64,000 bases of DNA from Oscillospiraceae bacterium. Its GTDB lineage: Bacteria > Bacillota > Clostridia > UMGS1840. The stretch spans positions 129,877-193,876 of the forward strand of contig SVKD01000001.1 in NCBI GenBank assembly GCA_015068645.1, given 5' to 3'. The notes under the pieces were generated by a model. That model was not told the origin of the DNA, did not search any database, and saw only the letters and a list, made by a program, of their open reading frames with translations. Each line of letters begins with the position of its first letter. The stretch's first letter is position 1. A program made the position numbers and the translations under genes. This document shows positions 15,933-49,346 of this stretch, piece after piece.

Positions 15933-18180
15933 ATTGGCAAAAGAATTTAATTTGCCAAATAAACAAGTCATGGAAATGATCAAAAATCTCGGCATTGAAG
16001 GAAAAAACAGCGCCAGCAGCTCTTTAGATGAAAAAGAATTGGATCAGGTTTTAGATGCGATTATGTTTTCTCATCAGGTAGAAGATTTTTCTATGTATGC
16101 AATTGAGAAAAAAGCAGAAGCTAAATCCAAGAAAGACGAAAAAAGCATCGAAGAAGAACAGAAAAACGAACAGGAAATTATCGAAGTGATTGAAAAACCC
16201 ATCGAGAAAAAAGTTCGTCATATCGATACCCGTCAGAATACCATTGATGAATCTCGTTTAGACGATACCAAAATTGAACAGATCATGCAAGGTACCGATA
16301 TTTATGCTACCGGAAGCACTTCCAAGCAGAAAATTAAGAAAAATGGTAAAAACCAAAGATTTGAAAGACACAACAACAAGTTCAACAAAAATAATCAGGA
16401 AAAGAAACAGCCTGTTGTAATCAAACCTGAAATTTTAAAGGTGAAAATTCCTGATGAAATTTCTGTTGGTGAATTAGCAGAACGTCTGAAGAAAACCGGT
16501 ACTGAAGTGATCAAAAAGCTGATGGGATTTGGCGTGATGGCTTCCCTTTCTCAGATTATTGATTATGATACTGCTTATTTGATTGCAGAAGAATTTGGAG
16601 CACAGGTTGAAAAAATCGTTACCGTAACTTTAGAGGAAGAATTATTCCACGAAGAAGAAGACCGTCCGGAAGATTTAAAACCCAGACCGCCTGTTGTGGT
16701 TGTTATGGGACACGTTGACCACGGTAAAACGTCCTTACTGGATACGATTCGTAACACCGATGTTACCGCAACCGAAGCCGGCGGTATTACCCAGCATATC
16801 GGTGCATATAAAGTAAAAATCGGTGACAACGATTTAACTTTCTTAGATACTCCAGGTCACGAAGCGTTCACCGCAATGCGTGCCAGAGGTGCCAAAGCTA
16901 CTGATATTGCAATTTTAGTTGTTGCAGCCGATGATGGCATTATGCCTCAGACCGTGGAAGCAATCAACCACGCAAAGGCTGCAGATATTTCTATTGTGGT
17001 TGCAATTAACAAAATGGATAAAGAAACTGCAAATCCAGACAAAATCCGTCAGGAATTAACCGAGTACGGTTTAGTTCCCGAAGAATGGGGCGGCGACACC
17101 ATTTGTGTACCTGTTTCTGCAAAAACCAAAATGAATATTGATAAACTTTTGGAAACCGTTTTATTAATTGCTGAATTGAAAGAATTAAAAGCAAATCCCG
17201 ATAAAGCAGCAAGCGGTATTGTAATTGAAGCAAAACTGGATAAAGGCAGAGGCCCCGTAGCTACTGTATTGGTTCAGAATGGTACCTTACATGCAGGCGA
17301 CATTGTTGTGGCAGGTACCAGTGTTGGTAAAGTCAGAGCAATGACTGACTATCAGGGCAAAGCAATCCGCGTAGCAGGTCCTTCTGTTCCTGTTGAAATT
17401 CTCGGTTTAAATGAAGCACCCACCGCAGGTGACGTATTTAAAGTAGTTAATGATGAGAAAAAAGCAAGACAGTTAGTTGAAGAAAGAAAATTCAATGAAA
17501 AAGAAGCAATCTTTAATGCAAGAAAAACCATTACTTTAGATAACTTGTTCTCTCAGATTGCTGAAGGTGAAATTAAAGATCTGAATCTGATTGTAAAAGC
17601 GGATGTTCAGGGTTCTGTAGAAGCAGTTACCGCTTCTTTGGAAAAACTGTCTAATGAAGAAGTAAGAGTAAAAGTAATTCACGGCGGTGTTGGTACCGTT
17701 ACGGAATCTGATATTCTGTTGGCATCTGCATCCAACGCTTTAATTATCGGCTTTAATGTTCGTCCTGATAATAAAACGATGGAATCTGCAAAAACCAATG
17801 ATGTAGATATTCGTTTATACCGTGTTATTTATCAGGCAATTGAAGAAGTAGAAGCAGCTATGAAAGGTATGCTTGCCCCCAAATTCAGAGAAAATATTTT
17901 AGGTCACGCAGAAATCCGTAACACCTTTAAAGTTAGTGGCGTTGGTACCATTGCAGGATGTTATGTATTAGACGGTAAAATTGTCAGAAATTCTGAAGTT
18001 CGTATTGTTCGTGACGGTGTAGTTATTTACGAAGGCGCATTAAACTCTTTAAAACGTTTTAAAGACGATGCCAAAGAAGTTGCCAGCGGTTATGAATGTG
18101 GTATGGGCTTTGACAGATACAACGACTTAAAAGAAGGCGACGTGATCGAATGCTTCGTGATGGAAGAAATTAAGCAGTAA
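15910..18180 (+). CDS. infB: Translation initiation factor IF-2
   Basis: IF-2 positions fMet-tRNA on the 30S subunit using GTP. Residues 1-50 form the IF2 N-terminal helical domain; a Lys/Glu-rich linker follows to ~170. The G domain has GHVDHGKT (G1), [10 protein letters not shown] (G2), DTPGHEAF (G3), NKMD (G4) and PVSAKT (G5), followed by the beta-barrel and C-terminal fMet-tRNA-binding domains. The start is TTG at 15910 with GAGGTGAG at a good distance inside ylxQ; no ATG fits. 756 residues is within the usual range. Confidence 0.97.
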
Positions 18181-38939: not shown

Positions 38940-39968
38940 TTATAATACATCTGCCAGATCGTAGATGAGTTTTTCGGTTTTTTCCCAACCTAAGCAAGGG
39001 TCGGTAATAGATTTTCCGTAAACGCCCTCTTCAGGTTTTTGTGAACCGTCTTCCAGATAACTTTCAATCATCAGACCTTTCACCAGCTTTTTAATATCCT
39101 CGCTATGACGACAGCTATGCAGCACTTCTTTCGCAATTCTAGGTTGTTCTGCCCATTTTTTGCCGGAGTTTGCATGGTTGGTATCAATAATCACACCGGG
39201 ATTTGTAAGACCTGATTTTGCGTAAGTTTCTGCTAAGTGAATCAAATCCTCATAGTGGTAGTTTGGCATAGACTGCCCATGTTTGTTCACATAACCTCTT
39301 AAAATTGCGTGAGCTAACGGGTTACCATGACTTTCCACTTCCCATCCTCTGTAAATAAAGGTGTGAGAATGTTGTGCCGCGGTGATAGAATTCATCATAA
39401 CGGAAATATCTCCTGCGGTGGGATTTTTCATTCCAACGGGAATATCCAATCCGCTTGCGGTGAGTCTGTGCTTCTGATTTTCCACAGAACGTGCACCGAT
39501 AGCAACATAGGAAAGCAAATCAGATAAATATCTGTGATTTTCAGGGTACAGCATTTCGTCTGCACAGGTGAAACCGGTTTCCGCAATCGCTCTGATGTGT
39601 AGACTTCTGATTGCCACTACCCCTTTTAACATATCCGATTCTTTGTTTGGATCAGGCTGATGAAGCATTCCCTTGTAACCGTCGCCTGTGGTTCTGGGTT
39701 TATTGGTGTAAATTCTGGGGATGATAAGAATTTTATCTGCCACTTTGTCCTGCACGGTGCGAAGACGGGAAATGTAATCAATCACACTGTCATCGTGGTC
39801 GGCAGAACAGGGACCGATAATTAAAATAAACCTATCATCTTTGCCTTCAAAGATTGACTTAATTTCCATATCTCTTTTTACTTTTAACTGTTCTAACTGA
39901 TAAGATAAGGGATACTGCTCCTTAATTTCCATAGGGATTGGCAGTTTCCGTTTGAAATTCATGTTCAT
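38940..39968 (-). CDS. aroF: 3-deoxy-7-phosphoheptulonate (DAHP) synthase
   Basis: First enzyme of the shikimate pathway, condensing PEP and erythrose 4-phosphate. 342 residues, type I-alpha (E. coli AroF/G/H-like): IIGPCSADHDDSVIDY, PRTTGDGYKG, VGMKNPTAGDISVMMNS, DTNHANSGKK and MIESYLEDGSQ. ATG 39968 follows TTGGAGGAGA; the in-frame start at 40001 would overlap tyrA. Symbol chosen for the family; which feedback type it is cannot be read with certainty. Last gene of the operon. Confidence 0.93.
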   Translation of the reverse strand: MNMNFKRKLPIPMEIKEQYPLSYQLEQLKVKRDMEIKSIFEGKDDRFILIIGPCSADHDDSVIDYISRLRTVQDKVADKILIIPRIYTNKPRTTGDGYKGMLHQPDPNKESDMLKGVVAIRSLHIRAIAETGFTCADEMLYPENHRYLSDLLSYVAIGARSVENQKHRLTASGLDIPVGMKNPTAGDISVMMNSITAAQHSHTFIYRGWEVESHGNPLAHAILRGYVNKHGQSMPNYHYEDLIHLAETYAKSGLTNPGVIIDTNHANSGKKWAEQPRIAKEVLHSCRHSEDIKKLVKGLMIESYLEDGSQKPEEGVYGKSITDPCLGWEKTEKLIYDLADVL

Positions 39969-39987
39969 TTTAATCTCCTCCAAGATA

Positions 39988-40845
39988 CTATTTTTTATCA
40001 AATAACGCTCTGCGCTCAGTGGAATGGCGCATCATTTGTCGCATACCGTCGATATCCTCAGTTTCGAGCATTGTTTTCAATTCCTTGAATTTATTCATAA
40101 ATAAGTCCATCTGACTAAGGAGCACTTCTTTGTTTGCTACAAACAGTTCACTCCACATCAAATCGTTAATACGGGCAATTCTGGTTAAATCACGGAAGGA
40201 ATCCCCCGTAAATTTTTCCATATGTTCCTTGTCATTGCAAGTCATTAACGTAATGGCAATACAGTGCGTCAACTGGGAAAGAAACCCAATCATCTCGTCG
40301 TGTTCTTCAGGCGATAAGGTTGTCACGTTGGAAAAACCAAGTAATCTGCCTAATTCCAGACAAGTGTTAATTGCTTTAGGTGTGTTTTTATCGGTGGGAG
40401 TTACAATATAGTTGGCACCTGCAAACATCTTATCGGTACTGTTTTCCACACCGGAAACCTCTCGTCCTGCCATAGGATGGGCGGCAATAAATTCCACGTC
40501 ATCCCGTAACATATTCTGAATTTTATAGACGATACTTCCTTTGACGCCTGTTACGTCAGAAAGAATCGCACCGCTTTTTAAAAGATGCTGATTTGCTTCA
40601 ATCCATTCCACAAAAATATGAGGATAGAGCGCAAAAATCACCAGGTCTGCTTCTTCGATCAATTTTTTGTCAAGTTCTGTGGAACCCTCATCAATAATAC
40701 CTTCTTGCAAGGCATAATCAATGGAGCTTTGCTCTTTGGTGATTGCGGAAATATGAAAGCCGAAGCGTTTTAACACTCTGGCATAACTTCCACCCAAAAG
40801 ACCAAGTCCCACAATTAAAATATTTTTACTAACATCTACGATCAT
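39988..40845 (-). CDS. tyrA: Prephenate dehydrogenase
   Basis: Converts prephenate to 4-hydroxyphenylpyruvate for tyrosine. Rossmann motif VGLGLLGGSYARVL, SDVTGVKGSIV, FIAAHPMAGREVSGVENS and GFLSQLTHCIAI are typical. 285 residues, without a C-terminal ACT domain, so direct Tyr feedback is not obvious. Its start overlaps aroA by 4 bp. Confidence 0.93.
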   Translation of the reverse strand: MIVDVSKNILIVGLGLLGGSYARVLKRFGFHISAITKEQSSIDYALQEGIIDEGSTELDKKLIEEADLVIFALYPHIFVEWIEANQHLLKSGAILSDVTGVKGSIVYKIQNMLRDDVEFIAAHPMAGREVSGVENSTDKMFAGANYIVTPTDKNTPKAINTCLELGRLLGFSNVTTLSPEEHDEMIGFLSQLTHCIAITLMTCNDKEHMEKFTGDSFRDLTRIARINDLMWSELFVANKEVLLSQMDLFMNKFKELKTMLETEDIDGMRQMMRHSTERRALFDKK

Positions 40846-42044
40846 GTTATATTCACCTCTGCTCCGAGAGTTCTGATATCATTAAAAAAGTTGGGATAAC
40901 TTTTTTTCACTGCCTCAACCCCCGAAATTTCTCCGCCGATTTGAGAGAGTATCACAGACATAGCCATCACAATCCGATGGTCATTGTGTCCGGATAAAAC
41001 TGTGCCGCGATACGTTAATTTCTGTTTTGGTACGATAATCATATTGTCACCAAACACCAGTCCGCCTCCCAGTTTTGAGAGTTCTTCGTGCATCGCCATA
41101 CCACGATCACTTTCTTTGGCTTTTAGTCTGTCGGTACCTATGAAAGTAGCACCGTTTTTCAAAGCCGCCAGTGCAATCAGGATGGGCCCAAGATCAGGAC
41201 AATCAGAAATATCAAGGATGGGTGTTCCCGTATCCAGCTTAGAAAAATATTCTTTGTAAACCCTATCTCCCTGCAAACTGTCTTCCCTCAGATTGTTGAC
41301 GGTAACATCTGAACCAAGCAAGTTAAAAGCATCCAAAAATGCGGCGTTGGAATAATCGCCTTCACTTCTGCCGGAAAACCCATGCAATTCGGACGATTTA
41401 ACTACTAAGGTATATTCATCACTAAAAGAAACATCCGCACCAAAAGACTGCAATGCCGAAAGGGTTAGCTTCACGTAGGAACGGCTTTCAAAAGGTGGGA
41501 TAATTTCGATTTTTGCATCTTCATTCCGATACACCAATGCAAACAGAAGTCCTGTGATAAACTGACTGCTGATATCCCCTTTTACCTGATAAGTTCCGCT
41601 TTTGAAGTTACCGTAAACAGTAACGGAATCTTCGTTTTTTTGGAACAGAAAACCGTTTTCTTTGCAAAGTTCTTCATAAACAGACAAAGGTCTCTCTAAC
41701 AGACGGGTGCTTCCTTTGAAAACAACTTCTCTCCCCAGGCACAACGCAAGGGGAATCAGAAATCGCAGGGTGCTTCCGCTTTCTCTGCATTCTAAAACAG
41801 GGCTATGGGCTTTCATAAAGTTTTTGGGATGAATTGTTACAGTATCGTCATTTACAGTAACCTCTGCACCCAACGCTTGTAAACAATCAAGGGTTGCCAA
41901 AATATCTTCACTGTAATCAACACCGGATAATGTACAATCTTCTCCCGATAAGGCAGCACCAATGAGATAACGGTGTGCCATACTTTTAGACGGCGGTGCC
42001 TCTATATTCCCTTTTAAGTGACAAGATTTGAATTTCGCGTTCAT
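40842..42044 (-). CDS. aroA: 3-phosphoshikimate 1-carboxyvinyltransferase (EPSP synthase)
   Basis: Forms EPSP from shikimate 3-phosphate and PEP. Motifs: APPSKSMAHRYLIGAAL, ECRESGSTLRFLIPLAL, DISSQFITGLLFAL and GHNDHRIVMAMSV. 400 residues from MNAKFKS at 42044 with AGAAGG upstream; the longer frame to 42071 overlaps aroQ and lacks a site. Confidence 0.95.
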   Translation of the reverse strand: MNAKFKSCHLKGNIEAPPSKSMAHRYLIGAALSGEDCTLSGVDYSEDILATLDCLQALGAEVTVNDDTVTIHPKNFMKAHSPVLECRESGSTLRFLIPLALCLGREVVFKGSTRLLERPLSVYEELCKENGFLFQKNEDSVTVYGNFKSGTYQVKGDISSQFITGLLFALVYRNEDAKIEIIPPFESRSYVKLTLSALQSFGADVSFSDEYTLVVKSSELHGFSGRSEGDYSNAAFLDAFNLLGSDVTVNNLREDSLQGDRVYKEYFSKLDTGTPILDISDCPDLGPILIALAALKNGATFIGTDRLKAKESDRGMAMHEELSKLGGGLVFGDNMIIVPKQKLTYRGTVLSGHNDHRIVMAMSVILSQIGGEISGVEAVKKSYPNFFNDIRTLGAEVNIT

Positions 42045-42045
42045 A

Positions 42046-42474
42046 TTAGTTACCTTCTGATAAAAAGTCAATGGCTTCTAAATATCCGTTTGTGCCGTGA
42101 CCGGTGATGGTCTTTTTGCAGGCAAGCCGAATATAACTGATTTGTCTGAAATCTTCTCGTTCTTCCACTTTGGAAATATGCACTTCCACCGTGGGAATTG
42201 CCACTGCCTTTAAGGCATCCAAAATGGCAATACTGGTGTGAGTATAGGCACCGGGATTGATGACAATGCCGTCAAATTTGCCGTATGCTTTTTGAATTTC
42301 GTCCACTAAATCTCCCTCGTGATTGGATTGATAGAACGACACCTCAATATTTCTTTCATCACAGTATCGTTTGATTTTGTTGCATAAATCCGCATAGGTT
42401 TCTCTGCCGTAATGGTTCGGCTCCCGAATACCCAACATATTTAAATTCGGTCCGTTTATCACAAGAATGTTCAT
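42046..42474 (-). CDS. aroQ: 3-dehydroquinate dehydratase, type II
   Basis: 142 residues, the usual type II size: ILVINGPNLNMLGIREPNHYG with the active-site Tyr loop, YQSNHEGDLVDEIQ, INPGAYTHTSIAI and VEVHISKVEEREDFR. Overlaps the aroE-aroK gene by 4 bp. Confidence 0.95.
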   Translation of the reverse strand: MNILVINGPNLNMLGIREPNHYGRETYADLCNKIKRYCDERNIEVSFYQSNHEGDLVDEIQKAYGKFDGIVINPGAYTHTSIAILDALKAVAIPTVEVHISKVEEREDFRQISYIRLACKKTITGHGTNGYLEAIDFLSEGN

Positions 42475-43718
42475 ATAATCAGCTCCGTTCTTTTTGTTGT
42501 AATAAATTGAGCTTCTGCTTCGGGTGTTTTTAAATCGGGAACGATGATATCTGCCGTGTCCCGATAAATGTCGATTCGTTCATCATATAATTTTTGCAGT
42601 TTTTCCACGGTATCGGATAGGGGTCTGTCATCCGTAGCTTGTAACCGTTTGAGAGTGGCTTCCAGGAAGAATAGTTTGCCGTTTTGCTTTAGGTAAAGCA
42701 CATTTTCTTCCCGTAAGATGGCACCGCCACCGGTGGAAATAATCTGGCGGTTTTCTTTGGAAATATCATAAATCACTTGGGTTTCCAAATCTCTGAAATA
42801 AGGTTCCCCTTTTTCTTTTATGAGTTCTTTAATACTGCATCCGCACCGTTTTTCAATTTCAGTATCAGTATCCACAAAGGTGTAACCATCTAAGGATATA
42901 CACTTCCCTACCGTACTTTTTCCGCTGCCGGGCATTCCTGTTAACACAATATTTTCTTTGTCACAAAGAATCCGGGCAAAAATGCTGTCTGCCCTTTCTT
43001 TTGCAATTTCGATATTTAAAAATTTCTCCACGGCAACCACTGCCTGCATCACCAACATATACAGACCGCCTTCGGCTTTTAATCCCCGTTTTTTTGCATC
43101 CAGCACTAGATTGGTGCAAAGCGGATTATATACCGCATCTAAAACCCCTTCCAAATTGGGAAAATAGGAAATATCAATTGGTTTTTCGTCACAGTCTGGA
43201 TACATTCCGGAAGGAGTGGTATTGATGATGATATTGGCATCAAAATGATTTTGGATAGCTTCCTCGTAGGTAATGCAATTTTCCTTTTTGCTTCTTGAAA
43301 CGGTCAAAATTTTGGTTGCACCCAAATCTTCGGCAACTACTCGGGCAGTTTTAGAGGTTCCGCCGGTACCTAAAATCAGTATTTTTCGATTTTTAAATTC
43401 AAGCTGCAATCTTTTGATTAACGATGTCATACCATAATAATCGGTATTGTAACCATAAAGTTTACCATCCCGATTAACCACGGTATTCACTGCACCGATT
43501 TTTTTTGCAATCTCACTGACCTCATCCAGATATGAAATCACTGTTTCTTTATAAGGAATGGTCACATTCACTGCCGCGAACTCTTTTTTTAGAAAGAAAT
43601 CTTTCACTTCCTCTTCGGAAAGCTCTATCAGTTCATAGGAATAATCGGCAAGTTTTTGGTGAATCTCTTTGGAAAAACTATGAGTCAGTTTTTTCCCGAT
43701 CAAACCGTATCGTTTCAT
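42471..43718 (-). CDS. Fused shikimate dehydrogenase (AroE) - shikimate kinase (AroK)
   Basis: Residues 1-~250 are AroE: YGLIGKKLTHSFSKEIHQ, AAVNVTIPYKE, GAVNTVVNRDGKLYGYNTDY, ILGTGGTSKTARV. Residues ~255-415 are AroK: VLTGMPGSGKSTVGK (Walker A), FVDTDTEIEKRCG, GEPYFRDLE, ISTGGGAIL and ATDDRPL. The frame is continuous, so one protein probably does NADPH-dependent reduction of 3-dehydroshikimate and phosphorylation of the product, two consecutive steps. Overlaps aroQ by 4 bp and starts 7 bp after aroC. Confidence 0.95.
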   Translation of the reverse strand: MKRYGLIGKKLTHSFSKEIHQKLADYSYELIELSEEEVKDFFLKKEFAAVNVTIPYKETVISYLDEVSEIAKKIGAVNTVVNRDGKLYGYNTDYYGMTSLIKRLQLEFKNRKILILGTGGTSKTARVVAEDLGATKILTVSRSKKENCITYEEAIQNHFDANIIINTTPSGMYPDCDEKPIDISYFPNLEGVLDAVYNPLCTNLVLDAKKRGLKAEGGLYMLVMQAVVAVEKFLNIEIAKERADSIFARILCDKENIVLTGMPGSGKSTVGKCISLDGYTFVDTDTEIEKRCGCSIKELIKEKGEPYFRDLETQVIYDISKENRQIISTGGGAILREENVLYLKQNGKLFFLEATLKRLQATDDRPLSDTVEKLQKLYDERIDIYRDTADIIVPDLKTPEAEAQFITTKRTELII

Positions 43719-43725
43719 TTGTTTC

Positions 43726-44817
43726 TCATCCTTTTAACCAGTCTGTTCCAAACCGCAATGCCAGGGCATCGCACAACACGATTGCCGCCGCCGCATCCTG
43801 CACAATTCTTGCCCGATGGACAATGGCAGGGTCATGTCTGCCTTTGGGTTCTAACACAGTTTCCTGCATTTCTTTAAAATCTACGGTATTCTGCGGTTTA
43901 AAAATGGTGGGTGTTGGTTTGATGGCAGTTCTGAACACAATGGGCATACCGTTGGTGATACCGCCGTTTAATCCACCGTTATTGTTGGTTTTGGTAACAA
44001 TTTCGCCGTTTTGGATTGTGAAAGCATCGTTGGCTTCGCTGCCTTTCATATCAGAAATGGCAAATCCTTTTCCAAATTCAATGCCTTTTACGGCAGGAAT
44101 GGAAAACATCATATGAGAAAGCTGACTTTCTAAAGAATCAAACCAGGGTTCTCCAACCCCGGCAGGCATACCAACAACAGCAGTTTCCAGCACACCGCCA
44201 ACGCTGTCACCGTCTTTTGCCGCTTCCAAAATGGCATTAGTCATTTTTTCGATACAAACATCATCCAGCACGGCAAAAGTTTTCTGATTGAGCATTTTAA
44301 TATCGGTCAACAAATCTCCGAATTCTCTATCAGAAATTCCTGCACATTTTTTAACGTGGGTGCCGATAACAATTCCTTTTTGCTCTAAAGCCAATTTACA
44401 GATAGCACCTGCCGCAACCAATGCAGCAGTGATTCTGCCGCTGAAATGTCCGCCACCTCTGGCATCCTGAAAGCCGTGATACTTACAATGGGCGGTATAA
44501 TCGGCGTGAGAGGGACGCGCAACCGTCTTAATTTCCGCGTAGTCACCGCTTTTCACATTTTCATTGGGAATGAGAATGGTAACGGGAGTTCCGGTGGTTT
44601 TTCCACAAAGCACACCACTCACAATCTTGAATTCGTCTTTTTCTTTTCTTGGTGTGGAAATTTTTCCGTCGGGACGGCGCAAGGTAAGCATCTTGCTGAT
44701 ATAAGCTTCATCCACTGTGATACCGGGTGCCAGACCGTCAATCACCGCTCCGATATATTCCCCGTGACTTTCGCCGAATAAGGTTACAGCCACACTTGTT
44801 CCAAATGTATTTTTCAT
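43726..44817 (-). CDS. aroC: Chorismate synthase
   Basis: Flavin-dependent final step of chorismate synthesis. FGESHGEYIGAVIDGLAPGI, RRPDGKISTPRKEKDEF, RPSHADYTAHCKYHGFQDARGGGHFSGR and GRHDPAIVHRA are the conserved signatures. 363 residues from ATG 44817, placed by AGGTGA; the GTG at 44826 is part of that site. Confidence 0.95.
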   Translation of the reverse strand: MKNTFGTSVAVTLFGESHGEYIGAVIDGLAPGITVDEAYISKMLTLRRPDGKISTPRKEKDEFKIVSGVLCGKTTGTPVTILIPNENVKSGDYAEIKTVARPSHADYTAHCKYHGFQDARGGGHFSGRITAALVAAGAICKLALEQKGIVIGTHVKKCAGISDREFGDLLTDIKMLNQKTFAVLDDVCIEKMTNAILEAAKDGDSVGGVLETAVVGMPAGVGEPWFDSLESQLSHMMFSIPAVKGIEFGKGFAISDMKGSEANDAFTIQNGEIVTKTNNNGGLNGGITNGMPIVFRTAIKPTPTIFKPQNTVDFKEMQETVLEPKGRHDPAIVHRARIVQDAAAAIVLCDALALRFGTDWLKG

Positions 44818-44826
44818 ATCTTTCAC

Positions 44827-45837
44827 CTACTCTATAAAACACTTTCTTGCCAGTTCAATCACTTCATCGCATTTCATTGTGACAAATTTGAAAAAACCAA
44901 TTTCATCCACCATAGAAACGGTGACGGAATCTCCGTCTGCCTTTTTATCGTGAAATGCTGCTGTTTTTATCATATTCCAATCAAAGTCAATCAGATTGTA
45001 TAGATTACATTTTTTTAATACTTCAATCACTCTCGGTCGAATAGATTTATCGCACATCGGAAGAAGTCCCAATGCAACACATTCTCCATGATATAAATTG
45101 GAAAAATTAGCGCTTTCAATGCCATGACCGATGGTATGGCCAAAATTCAAGATTTTCCGAAGTCCTAATTCTTTTTCGTCCTGCTCTACCACATTCTTTT
45201 TGATATTTAGTGAACGAATAATAATCTCGTCAAGGTGTTCATTAATATCTTTGTTTTCAATGATATCAAAAAGCTCTTTATCGGAGGTCAATGCCATTTT
45301 TACCGCTTCTGCAAGTCCGTTGGAAATCTGCCGCGTTGGAAGGGTGCTTAAAAGATCTGGGTCAACCAGCACCTTTTTCGGCTGATAAAAGGCTCCCACG
45401 ATGTTTTTCACACCGCCAAAATTGATACCTGTCTTTCCGCCAATGGATGAATCAATCTGAGATAACAAGGTGGTTGGGATATTGTAAAAATCAATCCCTC
45501 TCATATACGATGCTGCCGCAAATCCCGAAAGGTCTCCCACAACGCCACCGCCTACTGCAACCACGCAATCTCGTCTTGAGAAATTGTGGATAAGCATTGT
45601 TTCAAGCAGTTTAGAAAAGCCACTAATGCTTTTGGAATCTTCTCCCGCTGCCACTGTGCAGATCACTGCTTCTTTACATTGTGCCGCAACTATTTTTGCA
45701 TACTCTTCCGGCACACCGCAATCGGTAACAACAAGCACCCGTCTTACCAAATTCAGATGTTTGCCTGCTTCTCTAAGAAGTCCCCGTTCTACCAGGATAT
45801 CATAACTGTTTTCGCCTAAATTCATATGAATATTCAT
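44827..45837 (-). CDS. aroB: 3-dehydroquinate synthase
   Basis: NAD- and metal-dependent cyclization of DAHP. Motifs: RDCVVAVGGGVVGDLSGFAAASYMRGIDFYNIPTTLLSQIDSSIGGKTGINF, then LNFGHTIGHGIE and YHGECVALG. 336 residues, typical. 11 bp behind pheA. Confidence 0.95.
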   Translation of the reverse strand: MNIHMNLGENSYDILVERGLLREAGKHLNLVRRVLVVTDCGVPEEYAKIVAAQCKEAVICTVAAGEDSKSISGFSKLLETMLIHNFSRRDCVVAVGGGVVGDLSGFAAASYMRGIDFYNIPTTLLSQIDSSIGGKTGINFGGVKNIVGAFYQPKKVLVDPDLLSTLPTRQISNGLAEAVKMALTSDKELFDIIENKDINEHLDEIIIRSLNIKKNVVEQDEKELGLRKILNFGHTIGHGIESANFSNLYHGECVALGLLPMCDKSIRPRVIEVLKKCNLYNLIDFDWNMIKTAAFHDKKADGDSVTVSMVDEIGFFKFVTMKCDEVIELARKCFIE

Positions 45838-45848
45838 ACTAAAACACC

Positions 45849-46937
45849 TCAGATTTCACTGTGGGGAGCATAGGTGCCCACAATTTTTAATTGATCACAG
45901 ACTTCTCCTAATTCTGCTAACATCTTCTGACCGTCTTCGTGATCAGTTGTGCCGTCAATTTCAGTATAGAAATAATACTGCCAGGAATGTTTCTTTAAAG
46001 GACGGCTCCGAAGTGCCGTCATGTTATAACCATACGTTCCGATGATACTGATGGCTTTCGCCAAAGAGCCCGCTTCATTTTTTACGGTAAACATCAGAAC
46101 AGAACTTGTCATTGAAGAAGAATTCGCACGAACCTTGGATAACACGGCAAATCGTGTGGTGTTTTCACCGCTTTTATTAATGTTTGCATCCAACACGGAA
46201 AGCCCATATATTTCTGCTGTTTCCACGCTGGCAATGACTCCCAAGGAACGATCCTGTAAACCTGCAACACTCTTTGCTGCAACTGCAGTATTGTTAGCTT
46301 CTTCCGTATCAAACCCTTTTAATTTAATATACTCGTGACACTGAGCCAGTGCCTGTGGATGACTGATGACCTTTTTGATATCTTTGGGGGTAGCACCCGG
46401 AATTCCTAAAAGGTTTTGATGAATTGCCAACTCATAAATACCGTTTAAAAACAGAGTTCCTGAGAAAATCAAGTCCATAGTCTGCCCCACTTCTCCAGCG
46501 TAACTGTTTTCGATAGGAAGGACAGCCACATCCGCTTCTCCTATTACCACTGCATCATATGCGGACTTAAAATCACGGCAAGACACCCGATTACTTTTGG
46601 GAAAAATTCTGCCTGCAGCAATATGTGCAAATGCACCTTCAACACCGCTGTATGCTACTTTTAACCCACCTTGCATACGATACTGATAAGATTTTGAAAC
46701 ACTCATCATATTCTTAATAAAATCGATATAATAACTTTTTAAACCTTCATCGTCAATCAACCTCACATTTTTTTCGATGAGCTCCTCTTCCCGTTTTTCA
46801 TCAAAAATCGGAAGACCAAATTCTTTTTTATGCTCATAAACCAGTTCGGCAGCTTTCATACGTTCCACAAAAAGCTCCGCCATCTTTTTATCAACATCAT
46901 TGATAATGTTTCTAGCTTGTTCCAATTTATCTGCCAT
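45849..46937 (-). CDS. pheA: Bifunctional chorismate mutase / prephenate dehydratase (P-protein)
   Basis: Residues 1-90 are an AroQ-type chorismate mutase (LEQARNIINDVDKKMAELFVERMKAAELV). About 95-275 is prephenate dehydratase (KVAYSGVEGAFAHIAA, LPIENSYAGEVGQTMDLIF, NTTRFAVLSK). The C-terminal ACT domain (VKNEAGSLAKAISIIGTYGYNMTALRSRP) should bind Phe; the common ESRP reads RSRP. First structural gene of the aro operon, GAAAGGAAG before the ATG, and placed right behind the attenuator at 46964-46998, so Phe synthesis is controlled both by transcription attenuation and by feedback. Confidence 0.95.
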   Translation of the reverse strand: MADKLEQARNIINDVDKKMAELFVERMKAAELVYEHKKEFGLPIFDEKREEELIEKNVRLIDDEGLKSYYIDFIKNMMSVSKSYQYRMQGGLKVAYSGVEGAFAHIAAGRIFPKSNRVSCRDFKSAYDAVVIGEADVAVLPIENSYAGEVGQTMDLIFSGTLFLNGIYELAIHQNLLGIPGATPKDIKKVISHPQALAQCHEYIKLKGFDTEEANNTAVAAKSVAGLQDRSLGVIASVETAEIYGLSVLDANINKSGENTTRFAVLSKVRANSSSMTSSVLMFTVKNEAGSLAKAISIIGTYGYNMTALRSRPLKKHSWQYYFYTEIDGTTDHEDGQKMLAELGEVCDQLKIVGTYAPHSEI

Positions 46938-46963: not shown

Positions 46964-46998
46964 AAAACCTCACTTGACTATGTTACAAGTGAGGTTTT
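46964..46998 (-). terminator. Leader terminator (attenuator) of the aro operon
   Basis: On the minus strand AAAACCTCACTTG (46998-46986) pairs perfectly with CAAGTGAGGTTTT (46976-46964) around a 9-nt loop, followed by TATATTTTTG. It lies between the leader peptide ORF and pheA, so it must be suppressed for the operon to be transcribed. Confidence 0.92.
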
Positions 46999-47022: not shown

Positions 47023-47142
47023 TTAAAAACTGCCCTGACATCTCACAAGTAACTTTTTCATCGCAAAATAAGCATAGCCAAAATAAAAGACTACACTAAA
47101 GCTGAATAAATATTCATTTGCATTCATCAAAAGCATGTTCAT
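47023..47142 (-). CDS. Phe/Tyr-rich leader peptide of the aro operon, 39 aa
   Basis: A short ORF with ATG at 47142 and GAAGG upstream. Residues 11-26 read YLFSFSVVFYFGYAYF: five Phe and four Tyr in sixteen residues. The ORF ends ...KKLLVRCQGSF before TAA at 47023, 25 bp before the attenuator hairpin. Its last third (codons for KLLVR; bases 47053-47042, GTTACTTGTGAG) can pair with CTCACTTGTAAC (46993-46982), which covers most of the terminator's 5' arm, giving 5+5 bp around a TT/TT internal loop. A ribosome stalled on Phe/Tyr codons would leave this segment free and favour antitermination; one that finishes would mask it. It could alternatively be a small membrane peptide, but its position argues for a leader. 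Confidence 0.85.
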   Translation of the reverse strand: MNMLLMNANEYLFSFSVVFYFGYAYFAMKKLLVRCQGSF

Positions 47143-47174
47143 ATCAAGTTACCTTCAACATTTTAATTTATTCT

Positions 47175-47203
47175 ATTTTAACATTTTTCAAATAATTTGT
47201 CAA
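47175..47203 (-). promoter_or_regulatory. Promoter of the aro operon leader
   Basis: Minus strand consensus TTGACA (47203-47198), 17-nt spacer, TAAAAT (47180-47175), about 33 bp before the leader peptide ATG. Confidence 0.88.
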
Positions 47204-49065: not shown

Positions 49066-49346
49066 ATAAAAAAACCTCTGCAAACCTTATAGGATGCAGA
49101 GGACGAAAATTTCATTTCCGTGGTACCACCTCAGTTCGCCGCTATCTCACGGTAGCGACCTTATCAGGTACTGACATACCTTAGTTCTGTAACGGGAACA
49201 CCCGTTGCCTCCTACTGAAGATTTCTCTTGTTCAGTGCACTGCTAACAGAAGGAATTCGAGAAGGACCTCCCCATTGCCTCGCACCAACCGGCAACTCTC
49301 TCCAGGTTCTTTCCAACCTACTGGTTTCTGATCTTCGCATTTGATA
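49066..49346 (-). promoter_or_regulatory. T-box riboswitch, specifier best read as UUC (Phe)
   Basis: Leftward leader of paaK-ACT. The T-box core GAGGTGGTACCACGG is at 49132-49118. Stem I is recognisable: CAGAA-ACC-AGTA (49332-49321 region; AGUA of the loop E motif) faces GAA-TTC-C-TTCTG (49257-49246 region), placing TTC, a Phe codon, as specifier. The distal region AGAGAGTTGCCGGTTGGTGCGAGG is also typical. The UGGU bulge would pair with a tRNA ending ACCA, as tRNA-Phe does. A terminator CCTCTGCA/TGCAGAGG (49102-49095 with 49082-49075) with a T-run (49074-49066) follows. The base after the specifier is C instead of the usual purine, so the codon assignment is probable, not certain. Confidence 0.88.

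Follow-up and report, generated by a model that had tools for sequence, protein, structure and literature searches.

Leader-peptide attenuation is a switch best known from E. coli, and in its classical form it requires a ribosome that keeps pace with RNA polymerase. The anatomy used for comparison here is that of pheL as generally known from the E. coli system, with enterobacterial pheA and pheST as its settings. The first leader-peptide report for Firmicutes concerned His, at hisS paralogs of Bacilli, and noted exchange with T-boxes (PMC2965389); leader-peptide attenuators of his operons have also been described in the B. cereus group, Peptostreptococcaceae and Erysipelotrichales (PMC9413887). 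The uORFC-13-1 motif, which carries at least one Phe codon, lies before aroF and is reported only from Acholeplasma and environmental sequences (PMC8632094). In general, Bacillota are assigned to the species with runaway transcription, in which RNA polymerase outruns the ribosome (PMC13323073, PMC7858274), an assignment made at the level of the phylum (PMC13323073).

Here we describe a leader before an aromatic amino acid operon of an Oscillospiraceae bacterium that is very probably a ribosome-mediated transcription attenuator sensing charged tRNA-Phe and tRNA-Tyr. The original prediction of this leader had presented such control as out of the ordinary in Firmicutes, and the precedents above make it less unusual than was implied. 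The mechanism itself is classical, and the Phe/Tyr case in Clostridia is without an earlier report in the open literature that we searched.

Leader ORF and operon in the window

The window, that is, the whole stretch of 64,000 nucleotides that was analysed, carries the following features around the leader.

49096..49344, minus strand: T-box leader with a putative UUC (Phe) specifier, 107.9 bits, before paaK-ACT
47175..47203, minus strand: sigma-A type promoter TTGACA-17-TAAAAT, 11/12 matches, extended -10
47140..47156, minus strand: RBS GAAGGT (47156-47151) and start of the leader ORF, from sequence
47142..47023, minus strand: leader peptide ORF, 39 codons, predicted product MNMLLMNANEYLFSFSVVFYFGYAYFAMKKLLVRCQGSF
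47114..47121, minus strand: predicted arm 1 GCAAATGA (alifold), family consensus GCAAGTAA, Ala-Ser-Lys codons right before the Phe/Tyr run
47071..47097, minus strand: predicted codon-run hairpin AGTGTAGTC / GGCTATGCT, 9 bp, loop TTTTATTTT formed by Phe-Tyr-Phe codons
47042..47053, minus strand: predicted arm 2 GTTACTTGTGAG, end of the ORF, Lys-Leu-Leu-Val-Arg codons
46982..46993, minus strand: predicted arm 3 CTCACTTGTAAC, partner of arm 2 (antiterminator) or arm 4 (terminator)
46964..46998, minus strand: intrinsic terminator formed by arms 3:4, a 13-bp hairpin with a U-rich tail
45849..46937, minus strand: pheA (chorismate mutase-prephenate dehydratase, NCBIfam), first gene of the putatively controlled operon
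38940..45837, minus strand: aroB, aroC, aroEK, aroQ, aroA, tyrA and aroF (NCBIfam)

The leader ORF had been predicted with nine Phe/Tyr residues between positions 11 and 26, and both its coordinates and these counts are correct to the base (five Phe, F13, F15, F19, F21 and F26; four Tyr, Y11, Y20, Y23 and Y25). It has no Trp codons. The promoter, RBS and intrinsic terminator are likewise present in the window sequence as described. A short ORF with clustered codons for the operon's product amino acids, predicted to be translated from its own RBS, is separated from the first gene by a terminator stem of 13 bp (AAAACCTCACTTG / CAAGTGAGGTTTT; 9-nt loop, -17 kcal/mol, U-rich tail), which the terminator scan overlooked only because its loop limit was 8. 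NCBIfam identifies the genes that follow as chorismate mutase-prephenate dehydratase, AroB, AroC, an AroE-AroK fusion, AroQ, AroA, prephenate dehydrogenase and DAHP synthase, verifying the predicted order pheA-aroB-aroC-aroEK-aroQ-aroA-tyrA-aroF after the leader. Three genomes of the same genus (G001-G003, 77–95% complete) contain neither pheA nor the leader, which suggests that they are Phe/Tyr auxotrophs or have lost the pathway.

This ORF is unlikely to have arisen by chance. When the 266-nt upstream region was shuffled preserving dinucleotides, a sense-strand ORF of 20–60 aa with at least 9 Phe/Tyr within 16 codons, as rich as the leader, appeared in 0/3000 shuffles (at least 8 Phe/Tyr in 8/3000), and only one further ORF across the 64-kb window passes the same criterion, at 16221(-). 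The leader peptide was absent from phage records.

Conserved alternative helices and a predicted switch

A search for PheA relatives across 84,980 species genomes yielded 80 loci, and further loci came from whole-genome searches; outside the window, genomic reading covered the stretches around matches. The comparison set comprises 52 loci whose PheA is 71–80% identical to that of the window, nearly all from metagenome assemblies. Two (L038, L052) end before the leader, leaving 50 that could be classified. In 18/50 a leader homologous to that of the window (type A) stands directly before pheA, including one (L040) in which an early stop shortens the leader and the promoter is lost. The promoter, with 10–12 of 12 matches and a 17-nt spacer, lies 28–35 nt before the start codon in 17/19 members (exceptions L040 and L053). 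Indels within the ORF are multiples of 3, except in the divergent L053. Changes at the aromatic positions are mostly synonymous or between Phe and Tyr, with few exceptions, and no type A leader contains a Trp codon. The co-conservation proposed as a check on the original prediction is borne out, with ORF, Phe/Tyr density and terminator kept together before pheA in these 18 loci of related Clostridia.

RNAalifold, run on the 19-sequence type A alignment with and without the 3′ arm of the terminator, returned three alternative helices: an anti-antiterminator (1:2), an antiterminator (2:3) and a terminator (3:4). Arm 1 (GCAAGTAA) pairs with the part of arm 2 that reads TTACTTGT (Leu-Leu-Val codons), forming a helix of 8 pairs that is 90.7% paired across the alignment, with both-side changes in 2 pairs and one mismatch in the window itself. 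The codon-run hairpin (family form AGCGTAGYC / GGCTATGCT) is 96.5% paired, with both-side changes in 3 pairs. In the antiterminator, GTTACTTGTGAG and CTCACTTGTAAC form 5+5 bp flanking a UU/UU internal loop. Considered together, helix 1:2, the hairpin and helix 3:4 have 94% standard pairs, compared with 30–48% after sliding by 1–3 columns, and 7 pairs with both-side changes, a number as high as this occurring in 0/500 shuffles. Helix 2:3 is 94.2% paired (24–59% when slid), with both-side changes in 2 pairs; 27/500 shuffles reach 2 such pairs and 0/500 reach its covariation score, covariation support being weaker here because the helix is less variable. In L081 the outermost antiterminator pair changes from G-C to A-U, and arm 2 reads AA at the UU/UU loop. 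In the most divergent sequence, L053, arms 1, 2 and 3 have all changed, yet 7/8 pairs of helix 1:2 and 8/10 of helix 2:3 form. A candidate arm 1 in the RBS region, pairing as GTAACTT:AAGTTAC within arm 2, has full complementarity in the window but in no more than one or two relatives, and we therefore prefer the Ala-Ser-Lys arm. Judged from these comparisons, the promoter, RBS, Phe/Tyr ORF, three exclusive helices and codon-run hairpin are kept by selection. The pheL-type attenuation originally proposed is supported both by the 18 co-conserved loci and by the compensatory changes in mutually exclusive helices. That proposal had not included the antiterminator and anti-antiterminator arms, the codon-run hairpin or the T-box 2 kb upstream.

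From this arrangement we infer translation, stalling, helix switching and termination at the leader. Under shortage of Phe-tRNA or Tyr-tRNA, the ribosome would stall within codons 11–26 and either cover arm 1 or disrupt the codon-run hairpin, while arm 2, which begins at codon 30, would stay free to pair with arm 3; no terminator would then form and the whole pathway would be transcribed. With ample supplies of both, the ribosome would reach arm 2 and the stop codon and mask arm 2, so that arms 3:4 would form the terminator and transcription would end near 46964. Without translation, 1:2 and 3:4 would form together and transcription would terminate as well. The antiterminator and anti-antiterminator exclude each other, with an arm 2 that a stall at the control codons would free: there are no Phe/Tyr codons from 27 to the end of arm 2, and about 12 nt separate the last control codon (26) from arm 2. 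With general figures for the ribosome footprint, a ribosome whose A site halted at codons 11–15 would cover arm 1, and a stall at any codon up to 26 would leave arm 2 free. The stop codon lies 1–4 nt past arm 2 in seven loci (L032, L045, L048, L068, L077, L080, L081), so that a ribosome completing the peptide there would mask arm 2. In eight leaders, including that of the window, the distance is 16 nt, and for the window this extension makes it less evident that a terminating ribosome would mask arm 2. Since Bacillota are classed as having an RNA polymerase that outruns the ribosome, the case for ribosome-coupled attenuation would be weakened unless the polymerase pauses; the codon-run hairpin is a candidate pause, which would hold the polymerase for the ribosome.

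Terminator/antiterminator pairs are also common to attenuation by a trans-acting, TRAP-like protein or by a small-molecule riboswitch, with no part for the ribosome. The leader sequence, however, has no array of GAG/UAG triplets, Rfam returns no riboswitch in it even at E<=10 (unrelated chance matches only), and conservation extends to the ORF, its reading frame and its Phe/Tyr codons, all of which makes control of that kind extremely unlikely.

Leader types, T-boxes and their exchange

A second leader, type C (MxxSKFFYYFYYFAKGCPSF...), precedes aroF-pheA in 21/50 loci and is unrelated in sequence to type A. After its Phe/Tyr run, Gly-Cys-Pro codons (GGGCTGCCCG or close variants) pair with ACGGACAGTCC, which forms the 5′ side of the terminator; this antiterminator is 95% paired compared with 20–40% when slid, with both-side changes in 3 pairs, and terminator hairpins fold in nearly all of the 21 loci. 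A class-wide search with the type C model found it in 5/391 genomes, in 5/5 at the gene that opens a pheA or aroF operon. The corresponding type A search gave six genomes with a leader ahead of pheA or aroF (G000, G004, G015, G025, G086, G308), together with a degenerate leader in G176 and an orphan remnant in G054. Where the order of the operon differs, the leader stands before the new first gene, as with type C at aroF-pheA and with type A at aroF in G086. One locus of the 50 (L067, 1753-1957) has a third, Phe-rich leader type, MNNKLNFNNNFAFSFSFFGFTAEGVNLLCKNV, with a terminator, before aroF. Distant Ruminococcus-like and Lachnospiraceae loci carry further leader types (NNYFTFTFARFYAGFYCFAKNE; NNGFYYFIQAYFYVSLFAFYFF), in which a promoter and terminator-like hairpins were seen by eye. 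The NNYFTFTFARFYAGFYCFAKNE leader is strongly conserved in the Ruminococcus-like loci L083-L097, L106 and L107, about 100–320 nt before pheA. A weak model match (E=0.002) marks another Phe/Tyr-rich leader, SYFFFYFSQSFYFSFGYFCCGKLNKARLRLT, in L146 (G256:C16:24066-24129), followed by a gene resembling Bacillus-type DAHP synthases.

These unrelated leaders bear on the possibility that the short ORF is there to make a functional small peptide, acting in the membrane or by nascent-chain arrest, and that FYFGYAYFA is selected as a peptide. TnaC, for example, arrests ribosomes in response to Trp, and the type A product is hydrophobic and well conserved. But its conserved residues other than Phe and Tyr fall largely within the pairing arms of the RNA (Ala-Ser-Lys in arm 1, Ser-Val and Gly-Tyr-Ala in the hairpin arms, Lys-Leu-Leu-Val-Arg in arm 2), its C-terminus and length vary, and leaders at orthologous operons have Phe/Tyr richness in common, not sequence. 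Lack of conservation together with a match to a membrane-peptide family had been named as evidence against attenuation; Pfam searches with the leader peptides gave no family match, and the ORF is kept in the 18 related loci. A functional peptide is accordingly a very unlikely explanation.

An Ile-rich leader (MTVIFNTLALIIYIISIIIIGYAYLCMYMLPVS...) occurs in two further genomes (L128, G112:C8:61442-61648; L130, G179:C162:3947-4149), where it precedes a KdpE-like response-regulator gene near ilvC-ilvD. Both copies match the model of the Phe/Tyr leader (E 2e-5 and 7e-4). They retain the hairpin, arms 2 and 3 and the terminator, and look like the same RNA frame with its amino-acid specificity changed.

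T-boxes occur around the same genes. No T-box was found in the pheA leader itself; the sole T-box of the window, at 49096-49344, stands before paaK-ACT (49003-47249; a phenylacetate-CoA ligase-like paaK and an ACT-domain protein), directly upstream of the leader. The original prediction set the leader against T-box control, a contrast that needs refining: a UUC T-box precedes the adjacent paaK-ACT, and others with that specifier replace the leader in some relatives. The genome has six T-box matches, at paaK-ACT, pheST, trpB, ileS and two genes for proteins of ~765 residues, those outside the window having been assigned to genes by reading the sequence. The two ~765-residue proteins (L117, L119) have an N-terminal helix-turn-helix/cupin-like part. 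The leader lacks Trp codons, and trpB and pheST have T-boxes in this genome; both observations fit sensing of Phe/Tyr, not Trp. In 4/50 loci (L051, L054, L058, L076) a T-box stands directly before the operon (aroF or pheA). UUC is found at the expected specifier position in these four as in the paaK and pheST T-boxes, and from that position all would be specific for Phe.

Because paaK-ACT adjoins the leader and no terminator was found between the ACT gene and the leader in the window, T-box transcripts may pass through the attenuator too, placing two controls in series. A stronger version holds that the operon is mainly under the T-box, 2 kb upstream, by readthrough from paaK-ACT, and that the leader and terminator are a relic. 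In 4/50 loci a pheA operon with paaK-ACT running in does have a degenerate or missing leader (L036, L041, L069, L071), the first three with a T-box before paaK-ACT. In the window and most type A members, however, the promoter and all helices are intact, and the degenerate leaders of L040 and L069 have no promoter, so an intact one signals selection; a relic is very improbable.

Two loci (L047, L059) are leaderless, with nothing recognisable before the operon. Exchange of T-box and leader on the same operon is seen directly among close relatives. The best tree of PheA proteins implies at least 7 leader/T-box changes, of which well-supported branches force only one; with support this weak, the tree does not prove repeated exchange.

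Comparison with known systems

Whether Clostridia hold independently evolved, translation-dependent Phe/Tyr attenuators that trade places with Phe T-boxes, with one RNA frame recoded to Ile (G112, G179), is in our judgement an evenly balanced proposition. If true, transcription and translation would have to be coupled, at least locally, within a phylum assigned to the runaway class. Despite that class, Clostridia appear to place a central pathway under a switch that depends on translation and whose parts are strongly conserved, which opens the coupling question to direct testing outside Bacillus. For the evolution of such switches, a natural series is provided by the exchange of T-box and leader on a single operon and by the apparent Ile recoding.

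The Phe T-box (RF00230) resembles the leader in controlling termination before the same genes (L051, L054, L058, L076) and senses uncharged tRNA-Phe; it differs in binding tRNA directly, with no need for translation or a leader ORF. The uORFC-13-1 motif, compared by description and with no documented homology to the window leader, likewise has a short ORF with Phe codon(s), a promoter, a terminator and a DAHP synthase gene downstream, but belongs to Mollicutes and to aroF only. The Firmicutes His leaders represent the same classical leader-peptide attenuation in Bacillota, including exchange from T-box to leader, and differ in amino acid, operon and lineage. The RF01859 covariance model (Phe_leader) does not match the window leader, either at the gathering threshold or at E up to 10. 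In anatomy pheL is nonetheless similar, with a short Phe-rich ORF, 1:2, 2:3 and 3:4 helices, an intrinsic terminator and pheA downstream, whereas the window leader carries Tyr codons too and would also control the common pathway and the Tyr branch.
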